Origin: Micavibrio sp.
GTDB lineage: Bacteria > Pseudomonadota > Alphaproteobacteria > Micavibrionales > Micavibrionaceae
NCBI GenBank assembly: GCA_012960155.1
Contig: DUBU01000039.1
Coordinates: forward strand, 1 to 64,000
Direction of reading: 5' to 3'
DNA length: 64,000 nt
Shown: piece after piece, positions 8,926 through 36,314 of the stretch
How the letters are laid out: every line of letters begins with the position of its first letter
Position numbering within the stretch: the first letter of the stretch is position 1
Position numbers and translations under genes: made by a program
The notes under the pieces: generated by a model
What the model was told of the DNA's origin: nothing
The model's database searches: none
Seen by the model: the letters and a program-made list of their open reading frames with translations, nothing else

Positions 8926-9624
8926 TTAGAAAACACCTTCCATCTTTTTGGCAAGCCACGTCTTGCGATCTTCAATACGTAAACGGCCTTCTTCGAGCAT
9001 CAGAGTAGGGTGCCCGAAACTCTCGATAATATTCTGGTCGTGCGTGGCGATTACAATCGTAGTGCCCATGCGGTTAAGCTGTTCGAACAGATTCATAAGC
9101 TTGTGACCGATTTCATCATCAAGGTTACCTGTAGGTTCATCGGCAAGCAAAAGGCGCGGGCGCATAATGACAGCGCGGGCAATCGCAACACGCTGTTGCT
9201 GACCGCCTGACATAGTGTTTGGCAGCATATTCTTATGATCCTGCAAACCGACCCAATCCATAAGCTCGTTTACGTTGTTACGGATCTCTTTTTCGTTTTT
9301 GCCCTGAATACGCAGCGGTAGAGCCACGTTATCAAAGGCGGACAGATTATCAAGCAAACGGAATTCCTGAAACACAACGCCGATACGCTGTCTGATGGGC
9401 GAGAGTTCAGTACGATCAAGGCCGTTGATATTCTGGCCAAACATACTGACCAAGCCGCGTGTAGGGCGGATGCCCAGATACATAAGGCGAAGCAGCGAGG
9501 TTTTACCCGCACCACTCGGACCGTTCAAAAAATGGAAAGACCCTTGCTCCAGCGTAAAGCTTACATCGCTTAGAACTTCCGGACCGATACCGTATCTCAG
9601 CCCAACATGCTCAAACTTAATCAT
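8926..9624 (-). CDS. ftsE: Cell division ATP-binding protein FtsE
   Basis: ABC ATPase of the FtsEX division complex. The 232-residue protein starts with the FtsE hallmark MIKFEHVGLRYG, has Walker A GPSGAGKTS at about residues 36-44, Q-loop VFQEFRLLDNLSAFDNV, ABC signature MSGGQQQRVAIARA, Walker B LLLADEPTGNLD and the switch histidine in ATHDQ. All catalytic elements are intact. It overlaps the upstream TPR-like gene by eight bases and is followed immediately by ftsX, so translation is probably coupled. Confidence 0.96.
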   Translation of the reverse strand: MIKFEHVGLRYGIGPEVLSDVSFTLEQGSFHFLNGPSGAGKTSLLRLMYLGIRPTRGLVSMFGQNINGLDRTELSPIRQRIGVVFQEFRLLDNLSAFDNVALPLRIQGKNEKEIRNNVNELMDWVGLQDHKNMLPNTMSGGQQQRVAIARAVIMRPRLLLADEPTGNLDDEIGHKLMNLFEQLNRMGTTIVIATHDQNIIESFGHPTLMLEEGRLRIEDRKTWLAKKMEGVF

Positions 9625-31531: not shown

Positions 31532-32983
31532 TTAACCTAATTTCGCTTTTAATAGCTCATTCACCATCGCAGGGTTTGCTTTGCCTTGAGACTTTTTCAT
31601 GACCTGGCCGACGAAGAACCCGAACAGCTTATCTTTGCCGCCGCGGTATGCTTCGACGTTATCTGGATTTTCAGCGATCACTTCATCGATGATAGCTTCG
31701 ATAGCGCCAGTGTCAGTAACCTGCTTCAGGCCCTTTTCTTCAACGATAGCTGAAGCGTCCTTGCCAGTTTCAAACATTTCCGCAAACACGTCTTTAGCAA
31801 TCTTCCCGCTGATCGTATTATCGGAGATCAAATCAATCAGGCCACCAAGTTGCTCAGCTGTGATAGGGGACTCGGATAGCTCTTTATCTTCCTTGTTCAA
31901 GGCACCGAGCAGTTCGTTGATAACCCAGTTGGCAGCGAGCTTTGAGTCACGATCATTGGCAACAGTTTCGAAATAATCAGCACGTGATTTCTCTGCGATC
32001 AGAACGCTGGCATCATAAATACCAAGGCCCATATTCTGCATGAAGCGGTGCTTTTTCTCATCGGGAAGTTCAGGCAATGTTTTGCGAATGCTCTCGATCA
32101 GATCATTAGAGACCTCTAACGGCAGTAGGTCAGGATCAGGGAAATAACGGTAATCATGCGCTTCTTCCTTGGAGCGCATGGAACGTGTTTCCATTTTTGC
32201 AGGGTCCCACAAACGTGTTTCCTGATCAACGCTGCCACCATCTTCTATAATCTCAATCTGGCGACGGGCTTCGTATTCGATAGCTTGCTGCACAGCTTTC
32301 AATGAGTTCACGTTTTTAATCTCGGCACGTGTACCAAGGCCTTCGCCCGGCTTACGAACAGATACGTTTACGTCCGCACGCATAGAACCTTCGTCCATAT
32401 TGCCATTACAAGTGCCAAGGTAACGCAGAATCATGCGTAGCTTAGAAAGATACGCCACGGCTTCTTCAGGGCCGCGAATATCTGGCTCGGAAACAATCTC
32501 CATCAATGCACAGCCGGAACGGTTCAAATCCACGTAGGATTTAGTCGGGTGCTGGTCGTGCATAGATTTACCGGCGTCCTGTTCAAGGTGCAGACGAGTA
32601 ATACCGATTTCCTTTGTTGTGCCATCAGGAAGGTCAATCTCGATAACACCTTCACCAACGATAGGATGTTCAAACTGTGAAATCTGGTAACCCTGCGGCA
32701 AGTCAGGATAGAAGTAATTTTTACGGGCAAAAACGGAACGATGGTTGATCTTGGCATTCAAACCAAGCCCTGTACGCACGGCTTGCTCGACACATTTTTC
32801 ATTCAAAACAGGCAGCATACCGGGCATAGCCGCATCAACAAGGGAAACCTGAGAGTTCGGCGCAGCACCAAATGCTGTGGCAGCACCTGAAAAAAGCTTG
32901 GAATTCGCGATGACCTGAGCATGGACTTCCATACCGATCACGATTTCCCAATCACCTGTTTCACCTTTAATAAGCTGTGACAT
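31532..32983 (-). CDS. gatB: Aspartyl/glutamyl-tRNA amidotransferase subunit B
   Basis: GatB is the kinase-like subunit of GatCAB, which converts Glu-tRNAGln and Asp-tRNAAsn to the amides. The 483-residue protein starts with the family core [13 protein letters not shown] and shows [26 protein letters not shown] and [13 protein letters not shown], then [10 protein letters not shown] and the C-terminal YqeY-like tail domain (about 330-483). All expected blocks are present. In this genome it is separated from gatA by two exported cysteine-rich genes. GatCAB suggests that the organism lacks a canonical GlnRS or AsnRS, the usual alphaproteobacterial situation. Confidence 0.96.
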
Positions 32984-33019: not shown

Positions 33020-33664
33020 TTATTTAGCCTTCTGTAACGCATCGTAGTAGCTGGCAAAGCAGCGATTTTTAACGGTGCGTTGGTGCTGAATGTATTCAGA
33101 TGAAATTTTTACATCCTCATACGGATCATAAATCTCGTTTCCTTCTGAGTGTCGCAATTGCAGATGCGCTTGCGCTGCAAGCTCATAATAATCGGCAATC
33201 CCGTTCGCAACACAGGTACAAATAAAGTTCAATTTTTTCGGGTCGCCTTGAGAAGCATACTTGTTGTAGCGATCCGTAGCGCACTCATCATAAAGCAGCT
33301 CGCGTGCCGGAATGTGAAGGCACGGCGCATAAATTTCGAATTTCAGAATGTCTTCTGTTAGCTCGGCCGCTTCTGGCGCAGGGGTCAGGAAGTCGCCGAC
33401 TTTATTTCTCTCAACAGCTTGGTTCTTTTCCCAGATATCCACCTGAGCAGATGCGCAAGCGCAGTTCTCATAGGTTGTTTCTTCGGAAACATTGAATAAA
33501 GGTCTTTCAACGCATTCATTGAAGAAGCGATTGGCACGAGAGATGTTCTCGTCGTCAGCAGTCTCCATATCATCTCCGAACAGTGATTGCGCAGTGGCAG
33601 GCTGTGCGTGCAAAGCGCACACAGACATTACTGTAATCAGAGTGATAAGAAGAATGTTTTTCAT
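33020..33664 (-). CDS. Exported eight-cysteine protein, paralogue A
   Basis: A 214-residue protein with a signal peptide (MKNILLITLITVMSVCALHA, cleavage near AQPATAQ). The mature part has eight cysteines in the order C, CxC, C, C, CxC, C: NEC, NCAC, APC, DEC, CTC and a final RC. It shares this pattern, the block YAPC...LLYDEC...DR and the sequence IYDP with the neighbouring gene at 33665-34222, so the two are paralogues from a tandem duplication. I do not recognise a family. Four disulfides in the periplasm are likely. The ORF ends 36 bases before gatB and starts one base after the second paralogue stops. Confidence 0.75.
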   Translation of the reverse strand: MKNILLITLITVMSVCALHAQPATAQSLFGDDMETADDENISRANRFFNECVERPLFNVSEETTYENCACASAQVDIWEKNQAVERNKVGDFLTPAPEAAELTEDILKFEIYAPCLHIPARELLYDECATDRYNKYASQGDPKKLNFICTCVANGIADYYELAAQAHLQLRHSEGNEIYDPYEDVKISSEYIQHQRTVKNRCFASYYDALQKAK

Positions 33665-34222
33665 TTAGCCTCCTGCGCAAACAGTCCTGTTTCTCATTGC
33701 TTCCGCCAAGAAATCTTTATGGTTCATAATCGGTTCGATTGGATCATAAATATTCGGGTTTTGTTCAATGACGTCTACCATAATGTTACGGCCTTCCTTG
33801 GCCATCCATTCGGAAGTATTTTCAGCAACACAGCCACAGAATTTCTCGACGGGCAGGGTGCTACGCATACGCTGCACCTTACGGTCGCTCATGCAGTTAT
33901 CAAAAAGCAGGTCATGCAATGGGAAGTTAATGCAAGGTGCATAAACATTCAGAAGCATAGCGTTTAGCGCTTGGCGGCTTTCATAGGAATCTTCCAGCAT
34001 CAGCTGCATATCTTCCATCGTAAAGTTTCTCTGCATCATCGCCGCGTTACACGCACACATGGCATCTTGAGATGCAGCGCTCATGCGCGGGTCCTGATTG
34101 GCTTTACAGTTGTAGTAATACTGGTTGGCCGTCTGTGCACTTACCGGTGTTTGCGCTTCAGCGTGGTTTGCAACGCTGAACGTTAGAAGTGTAAGGACTG
34201 TAACAGCCAATAGTCTCAACAT
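33665..34222 (-). CDS. Exported eight-cysteine protein, paralogue B
   Basis: A 185-residue protein with signal peptide MLRLLAVTVLTLLTFSVANH (cleavage near AEA-QTP). Its mature part has the same eight-cysteine order as paralogue A: YNC, MCAC, APC, DNC, FCGC, VC. Shared blocks are YAPCINFPLHDLLFDNC versus YAPCLHIPARELLYDEC, and NIYDPIEP versus EIYDPYED. The start ATG at 34222 lies four bases past the gatA stop; a longer in-frame reading from 34366 is inside gatA and has no signal peptide at its start. An AAAGG sits 14 bases upstream. Function unknown; the neighbours (gatA, gatB) are cytosolic, so the location is unexpected. Confidence 0.75.
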   Translation of the reverse strand: MLRLLAVTVLTLLTFSVANHAEAQTPVSAQTANQYYYNCKANQDPRMSAASQDAMCACNAAMMQRNFTMEDMQLMLEDSYESRQALNAMLLNVYAPCINFPLHDLLFDNCMSDRKVQRMRSTLPVEKFCGCVAENTSEWMAKEGRNIMVDVIEQNPNIYDPIEPIMNHKDFLAEAMRNRTVCAGG

Positions 34223-34226
34223 GATA

Positions 34227-35714
34227 TCAAGCAGCCTTTCTGGAAATTGTCGCAGGCATCGCTGTAAAATTAGCAGCCTGTTCCACCGCATGAGCCACGC
34301 GGAAGACGGTTTCTTCATCCCAGGCTTTACCCAGAATTTGCAAGCCGAGCGGCAGACCATCTGCACTCAGTCCTGCGGGAACAGACATACCCGGTAGACC
34401 TGCAAGTGACGCAGGAACAGTAAACACATCATTCAGATACATTTTGATTGGATCATCTTCGTTCTCACCAATAGCAAAGGCCGCTGATGGCGCAGTTGGC
34501 GTCAGAAGCGCATCACACTTCTCATATGCTTTTTCGAAGTCCTGCAAGATCAGGCGACGGACTTTCTGTGCCTTGATGTAGTAGGCATCATAGTAACCCG
34601 CTGACAGAACGTAAGTGCCGATCATGATGCGGCGCTTAACTTCTTCACCAAAACCTTTGGAACGTGTGTTCTCGTAAGTATCGATCAAATTGTCACCGGT
34701 TTCACGAAGGCCGTAACGTACACCGTCATAACGTGCAAGGTTAGACGAGGCCTCGGCTGGTGCGATGATGTAGTAAGTCGGCAGCGCATATTTTGTGTGC
34801 GGCAGGCTGACATCAACGATCTCTGCACCGGCTTCTTTCATCCATGCGATACCTTGATCCCATAGATTGGCGATTTCTTCAGGCATGCCGTCCATGCGAT
34901 ATTCTTTAGGAATACCGATTTTCATGCCTTTGATATCTTTACCGTACAAAGAAGACCAATTAGGAACTTCTCGGTTGGCAGATGTGCTATCTTTCGGGTC
35001 ATGACCACTCATGGCTTGTAGCATAATGGCGCAGTCTTCAACGTTACGGGCAAAAGCACCGGCTTGGTCTAGAGAAGACGCAAACGCCACAATACCCCAG
35101 CGAGAGCAGCGGCCATATGTCGGCTTAATTCCGGTAATGCCGCAGAATGCAGCAGGCTGACGAATTGAACCACCTGTATCAGTACCAGTCGCACCCATAG
35201 CCATGCGTGCCGCCAATGCGGAAGACGAACCACCTGAAGAACCGCCCGGAACCAGATCAGCATTATCGCCGTTATTGCGCTTCCATGGGTTGATTACATT
35301 ACCAAAGTAACTTGTCGTGTTTGAGGAGCCCATCGCAAATTCATCCAGAGATGTTTTGCCAAGCATAACTGCACCATTATCGAAAAGCTTCTGCGTCACA
35401 GTGGATTCATACTGAGGAATAAAGCCTTCCAACATGTGGCTGGATGCTGTCGTTTGAACACCTTTTGTACAGAACAGGTCTTTAATGGCTAGTGGGATAC
35501 CTTCAAGCAAACCAACATCACCACTTGCGCGCTTCTTATCGGATGCTTCGGCTTGCTGCAGAGCAATTTCAGGAGTTTCAACGATAAACGCATTCAGGTG
35601 GCGCTGTGATTCAACGGAATCGATATGCGCTTTCGTCAGCTCAACAGAACTGAACTCTTTATTCTCAAGCCCTGTAAGGGCACCTTTGATTGTTAGGTTT
35701 GTTAGGTCACTCAT
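34227..35714 (-). CDS. gatA: Glutamyl/aspartyl-tRNA amidotransferase subunit A
   Basis: GatA is the amidase subunit of GatCAB, releasing ammonia from glutamine or asparagine. The 495-residue protein shows the amidase-signature triad: Lys78 in AIKDLF, the cis-Ser in [10 protein letters not shown] (about 159-160) and the nucleophile Ser183 in [11 protein letters not shown]. The remaining core ([18 protein letters not shown]) is normal. Two bases separate it from the small membrane gene upstream, and four from the eight-cysteine paralogue downstream. Confidence 0.96.
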
Positions 35715-35716
35715 CT

Positions 35717-35956
35717 CTATACTCTGTCTGATCCTTTAAACAAAATTAGCTTGGCTACGACTAAGTCCGAAATGCCGACCCACAGGAGAGATCCTCCCAA
35801 GACACGGCACATAAAAACATCGTCTTCAAAAATAAAACTGAAAAGTGACGGATACACTAAGCCCGCAGCGCCGACGAACATAAAAAGCACACCCGTAAAT
35901 AGAATGATGCCTTTAACCATGTTTTGCTGCTGTTTAGAGGGGCCTTGTTCCGTCAT
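35717..35956 (-). CDS. Small two-helix membrane protein
   Basis: A 79-residue protein with two hydrophobic segments (about residues 15-37 and 50-68) separated by FEDDVFMCR. No family is recognised. It is wedged between gatC (six bases) and gatA (two bases) with no room for its own promoter, so it is part of the gat transcript. Short N-terminal tail ([11 protein letters not shown]) and basic C-terminus suggest a cytoplasmic N-terminus. Function unknown. Confidence 0.6.
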
Positions 35957-35962
35957 AATTTT

Positions 35963-36250
35963 CTACTCCACCACCTTTGGTACTACGTAGAAATCTTCCA
36001 TTTCCTCTGGTGCATTGGCTAGAACAGCTTCTGGACAGTTACCGTCGGTAATTTCGTCTTTGCGCAGGGGGAGGGCGATATCAACAGGGCTTGGTAGGGG
36101 CTCTACATTGTCCGTATCAACTTCTGAAAGTTGCTCGACAAAGCCGATAATGTTGTTCAGTTTTTCGCGTGTGCTGTCCAGTTCGTCATCAGTCATTTTG
36201 ATGCGTGCCAGACGGGCAACTTTTGCGACATCTTGGTTCGTTAAAGACAT
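35963..36250 (-). CDS. gatC: Aspartyl/glutamyl-tRNA amidotransferase subunit C
   Basis: GatC stabilises the GatA-GatB complex. The 95-residue protein has the family start MSLTNQDVAKVARLARI, the helix LNNIIGFVEQLSEVDT and the closing PLPSPVDIALPLRKDE. I use the ATG at 36250 (with GAGGA upstream); a longer reading from 36289 lacks a ribosome site. It is the first gene of a minus-strand string reaching the TerD gene. It diverges from ruvX, whose start is at 36315. Confidence 0.95.
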   Translation of the reverse strand: MSLTNQDVAKVARLARIKMTDDELDSTREKLNNIIGFVEQLSEVDTDNVEPLPSPVDIALPLRKDEITDGNCPEAVLANAPEEMEDFYVVPKVVE

Positions 36251-36314
36251 ACTTGTAATTCCTCGTTTAAAACCGTAGTTTTCTAGCACTAGAGATTAAT
36301 ATAAGCAAGGCCAT

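Follow-up and report, generated by a model that had tools for sequence, protein, structure and literature searches.

In the 64,000-nucleotide stretch of Micavibrio sp. DNA analyzed here (the window), two adjacent genes encode the proteins P1 and P2, which probably are soluble, disulfide-stapled, non-enzymatic proteins of the cell envelope with a binding or structural role, specific to the Micavibrionaceae and co-expressed with the gat genes during growth. We put the probability of this reading at roughly 0.6. An earlier sequence-only reading had described the pair as recently duplicated exported proteins of a possibly undescribed family, with expression tied to a tRNA-amidation operon, and our analysis supported it in part. 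The genes lie on the minus strand in the order gatC, a small membrane-protein ORF, gatA, P1, P2 and gatB, and the two adjacent ORFs with signal peptides are present between gatA and gatB where they had been placed:

35963..36289, minus strand: gatC ORF, head of the gat string; its real start is possibly an ATG near 36250 (by inspection)
34227..35714, minus strand: gatA, upstream neighbour of P1 and conserved flank of the slot
33665..34222, minus strand: P1, exported eight-cysteine protein of 185 aa with its ATG at 34222; the better conserved copy
33020..33664, minus strand: P2, exported eight-cysteine paralogue of 214 aa; fast-evolving, with orthologues in about 5 genera
31532..32983, minus strand: gatB, downstream neighbour of P2 and conserved flank of the slot

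The gaps of 4 nt between gatA and P1 and of 36 nt between P2 and gatB are as previously described, whereas the supposed 1-base gap between P1 and P2 is 0 nt. The two genes adjoin directly, and the AGGAGG site of P2 overlaps the stop codon of P1. Promoter and terminator scans gave results at chance level. An ORF of 79 aa with two hydrophobic segments (35717-35956, minus strand) was observed between gatC and gatA, and weak relatives of it were found by tblastn in a few related gat loci (L083, L096, L248).

By inspection, P1 and P2 each start with a hydrophobic stretch that resembles a signal peptide and closes with A-x-A, and the order C, CxC, C, C, CxC, C was found in both proteins alike. Mature P1 and mature P2 contain eight cysteines each, the ninth cysteine of P2 being confined to its signal peptide. 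The features within the two proteins are as follows:

34154..34222, minus strand: P1 signal peptide, residues 1-23, predicted by inspection to end between NHAEA and QTP
33932..34138, minus strand: P1 unit 1, residues 29-97, with C39, C56-x-C58 and C97 and three main helices
33671..33928, minus strand: P1 unit 2, residues 99-184, with C110, C129-x-C131 and C182
33590..33664, minus strand: P2 signal peptide, residues 1-25, predicted by inspection to end between QPATA and QSL; contains the ninth cysteine

P1 and P2 both show the combination by which we define the gat-linked family, a signal peptide followed by C-CxC-C-C-CxC-C with a fixed 12-residue spacing between cysteines 4 and 5. When P1 was used as a query, relatives were found in 31 of 58 sampled relatives, all within the Micavibrionaceae, and a profile built from 41 members (alignment A1) matched 92 of the 142 genomes of the order. 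These matches comprise 92 of 104 Micavibrionaceae genomes and none from the other families of the order. The gat-linked eight-cysteine family is lineage-specific and near-universal in the Micavibrionaceae; the gene cannot be strictly essential, considering that 12 of the 104 genomes have no detectable copy. All 92 matching genomes have the gene next to gatA, gatB or both: 87 show both flanks, and in 5 the contig ends on one side. Among 85 genomes, 22 have a first start codon that overlaps the gatA stop codon, 37 have it within 5 nt (overlaps included) and 77 within 50 nt. This spacing and position are consistent with co-transcription and translational coupling, as the sequence-only reading had supposed for expression.

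The same slot could instead be a permissive gap that tolerates insertions, with a protein that works independently of gat expression. We consider this possible although clearly less probable than coupling. In the sister families, the gatA-gatB gap is empty or holds unrelated genes, and in several genomes of the family (G017, G027, G028, G032) the eight-cysteine gene is itself followed by unrelated genes, so the slot may simply be tolerant of insertions, with no requirement for coupling. A tolerated insertion would, however, fit poorly with a gene that has not moved in any of the 92 genomes and that shares bases with the gatA stop codon in 22 of 85; together, the fixed position and the start/stop overlaps suggest selected coupling.

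Each protein consists of two homologous four-cysteine units of the form C-x16-CxC-x38-C, an internal duplication that the sequence-only reading overlooked. Profiles of the N-terminal and C-terminal halves aligned with an E value of 6e-7. When non-overlapping halves were compared by hhalign, the score was 32.0, whereas the maximum in 30 permutations with the cysteines held in place was 22.3; the halves are therefore homologous beyond their cysteines. Other Alphaproteobacteria, and other Pseudomonadota as well, have standalone exported proteins that consist of a single such unit with its four cysteines. The A1 profile, although built without single-unit proteins, finds three of them (L139, E 1.2e-11; L140, E 8e-7; L141, E 2e-5), and class-wide searches beyond the family gave weak half-length matches only. 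These single-unit proteins (for example L139, L140, L142, L146, L165-L172) have the unit C-x(n)-CxC-x(n)-C in common with P1 and P2, carry a signal peptide or a lipobox and are about 100-130 aa long. They differ in having one unit instead of two and in not lying beside gat genes where their surroundings were seen. Scans of Pfam, NCBIfam and PHROGs matched no library family covering them. Based on the existence of such standalone proteins, we think it most likely that a single-unit protein was duplicated and fused to give the double unit, and the cysteine pairing should be able to close within one unit. In another alphaproteobacterium, the single-unit four-cysteine exported protein at L139:1438-1833 lies between adk and ribosomal-protein genes, another placement in a translation-related gene string.

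P1 and P2 share 23% identity over their length with a BLASTP E value of 3e-11, and their resemblance is therefore not due to chance. Two copies are present in 30 of 90 genomes. P2 orthologues of five genera form a weakly supported group (69/81), apart from the P1 orthologues, which group on their own; an AU test rejected P1 and P2 as sisters with p of about 1e-76. Taken together, the AU rejection and the separate orthologue groups indicate that the P1/P2 duplication is ancient. The recent duplication proposed before is rejected on the basis of the AU test, and it is also at odds with the low identity and with the occurrence of P2 orthologues in several genera. In other genera (g3, g4, g17, g31), a different divergent copy lies upstream of the P1-like copy.

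Further eight-cysteine relatives, missed by the sequence-only reading, are encoded elsewhere in the source genome, the count of paralogues there being taken from profile searches:

G000:C39:66662-67141 (L159:4663-5145): second-family eight-cysteine exported protein of 160 aa, 2.7 kb beyond the end of the window
G000:C17 near 9182-9340 (L187): eight-cysteine protein with an N-terminal hydrophobic segment, its sequence read
G000:C6:2536-2922: second-family match, by profile alone

The second family (alignment A5) consists of exported proteins having eight cysteines in the same order as the gat-linked family, and they are encoded away from the gat slot. It was found in 34 of 37 Micavibrionaceae genomes and in none of 21 genomes of other families of the order, and it also occurs in some genomes that lack the gat-linked family. 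The A5 and A1 alignments matched in hhalign with a probability of 97% and an E value of 5.5e-11 in an alignment that includes the signal peptide, and the A5 profile also finds P2 (E 1.4e-6). While no polar residue is invariant in the gat-linked family, one Glu and one Arg are invariant in the second family among 8 sequences. The protein at C39:66662-67141 is encoded upstream of a kdsA-like gene. In two genera (L154, L157), the second family was observed near a helix-turn-helix-like ORF (AKVGAQRAAELTG...).

Two homologous eight-cysteine protein families that, within the order, were found in the Micavibrionaceae and in no other family searched could point to predation, considering that the Micavibrionaceae include the obligate predator M. 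aeruginosavorus. P1 and P2 would then be secreted or surface-displayed binding factors acting at prey contact, with disulfide staples stabilising them outside the cell and with surface variation that follows the prey range. Fast sequence divergence and the presence of several paralogues are in line with such a role. Nevertheless, we regard it as rather unlikely: Pseudomonadota of other orders also have single-unit relatives, the genes with which it is linked serve housekeeping and not the attack phase, the only export signal shown is of the Sec type, and predation is unproven for most of these metagenome-derived species. A bolder version, in which a new disulfide-stapled helical fold had its double-unit forms expanded into prey-contact proteins and locked to growth through the gat genes, seems to us more doubtful still.

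To describe the cysteines across the family, we compared 120 proteins from 90 genomes. Eight cysteines were found in 119 of them, the exception having unread bases at that place, and all eight positions are kept in each of the 119 complete sequences, which shows that the shared cysteine order holds in homologues as well as in P1 and P2. A ninth cysteine was found in none of the 119 proteins over about 18,500 mature residues, counted from twelve residues before the first cysteine through the C-terminus. The first 43 sequences had been chosen partly by their cysteine pattern, and the other 77, chosen by profile alone, gave the same result; G023_2, a copy with seven cysteines whose start is uncertain, was left out. 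The spacing between the fourth and fifth cysteines is 12 residues in all 119 sequences. At the N-terminus, 116 of the 120 members have a hydrophobic segment and 115 have an A-x-A-like site, while none has a lipobox. In alignment A1, with 41 relatives, all eight cysteines are invariant and no other column is. After the cysteines, prolines are the most conserved residues of the family (91-93%). Eight invariant cysteines with no others fit an arrangement in which all thiols are paired in an oxidising compartment. Considering also the signal peptides and the DsbB encoded in the genome, disulfide bonding is the straightforward reading, and four disulfides per protein are strongly indicated by the sequence pattern.

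Cu(I) can be bound by CxC motifs that are accompanied by other cysteines, and exported proteins in which methionine is fairly common (5% of residues) might alternatively hold copper or zinc, buffering or chaperoning these metals in the periplasm. A constant, even set of cysteines with none besides is, however, the hallmark of disulfides, the family alignments contain no invariant His or Met column, the operon holds no metal-handling neighbour, and DsbB is present. Copper storage proteins (Csp) are exported cysteine-rich helical bundles as well, but they line one four-helix bundle with many cysteines, whereas here eight cysteines stand in a fixed C-CxC-C repeat. Searches of Pfam, NCBIfam and PDB sequences gave no match to Csp or to any other described metal-storage family, and we consider metal binding improbable. 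Regulators or partners of GatCAB in tRNA amidation, suggested by position only, are very improbable, since the signal peptides direct P1 and P2 out of the cytoplasm where GatCAB works, and in several genomes gatA and gatB are present but the gene is not.

The AlphaFold2 (AF2) model of P1 is all helical with a mean pLDDT of 95.0 and a pTM of 0.83, and unit 1 modeled alone gave a pLDDT of 95.2 and a pTM of 0.82. The best Foldseek E values against the PDB were 0.66 for whole P1 and 3.6 for one unit, and the best VIA Z scores were 7.1 over 81 residues for the whole protein and 4.3 for the unit, which is within the background for helical models. Neither Foldseek nor VIA produced a convincing fold counterpart in the PDB for the whole protein or the unit, although such an absence is no proof of a new fold, and a BFVD fold search gave no match. 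At the sequence level, neither P1 nor P2 matched a Pfam family even at E values up to 10, and scans of P1, P2 and the 41 relatives against Pfam, NCBIfam and PHROGs returned only scattered single-member chance hits. Among PDB sequences, the best E value was 0.4 with the family profile, and nothing was found with the unit profile. Phage records, plasmid records and IMG/VR held no relative of the family, and there is accordingly no sign of a mobile origin. The literature yielded nothing relevant on a cysteine-rich CxC family or on a protein between gatA and gatB. Since no library or PDB match was found, the family appears to be undescribed in the libraries searched (Pfam, NCBIfam, PHROGs, PDB), in line with the earlier suggestion of a possibly undescribed family. 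Small disulfide-rich exported proteins as such are already a known kind. The LprI/DUF1311 proteins (PF07007), for example, are small exported cysteine-containing helical proteins of Gram-negative bacteria; to our knowledge, their cysteine pattern lacks the repeated CxC, and P1 and P2 stay below the gathering cut-off of PF07007.

Returning to the reading as envelope proteins, we take P1 and P2 to be ancient paralogues in a Micavibrionaceae-specific family of exported soluble proteins. The mature protein is predicted to contain a compact unit of three helices twice over. The most likely disulfide pattern joins the two CxC cysteines of a unit's middle helix to single cysteines on the two helices flanking it, and we propose two such bridges per unit and four per protein. 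Because no polar residue is invariant, the proteins are most likely not enzymes. An unvarying cysteine scaffold beneath a surface that changes fast fits an envelope protein with a binding or structural role, and we infer a rigid element of this kind, located in the periplasm or on the surface of the cell. If the gene is read as part of a gatC-gatA-P1-P2-gatB string, its product is probably synthesised alongside the translation machinery during growth, which in predators would mean the phase of attachment to prey. A report on M. aeruginosavorus (PMC3189940) describes a rise of housekeeping, translation and Sec genes in the attachment phase. As both translation and Sec genes rise there, an exported protein coupled to gat would be produced during growth on prey.

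Taken all together, two anonymous ORFs become a defined and testable family, specific to one lineage, near-universal there and constant in its operon slot. Its cysteines are under near-absolute constraint, and its predicted fold is confident and had no PDB match in our searches, which makes it a candidate for a new fold, with single-unit relatives in other Pseudomonadota as well. The family offers a handle on the envelope biology of a bacterial group with an epibiotic predator.
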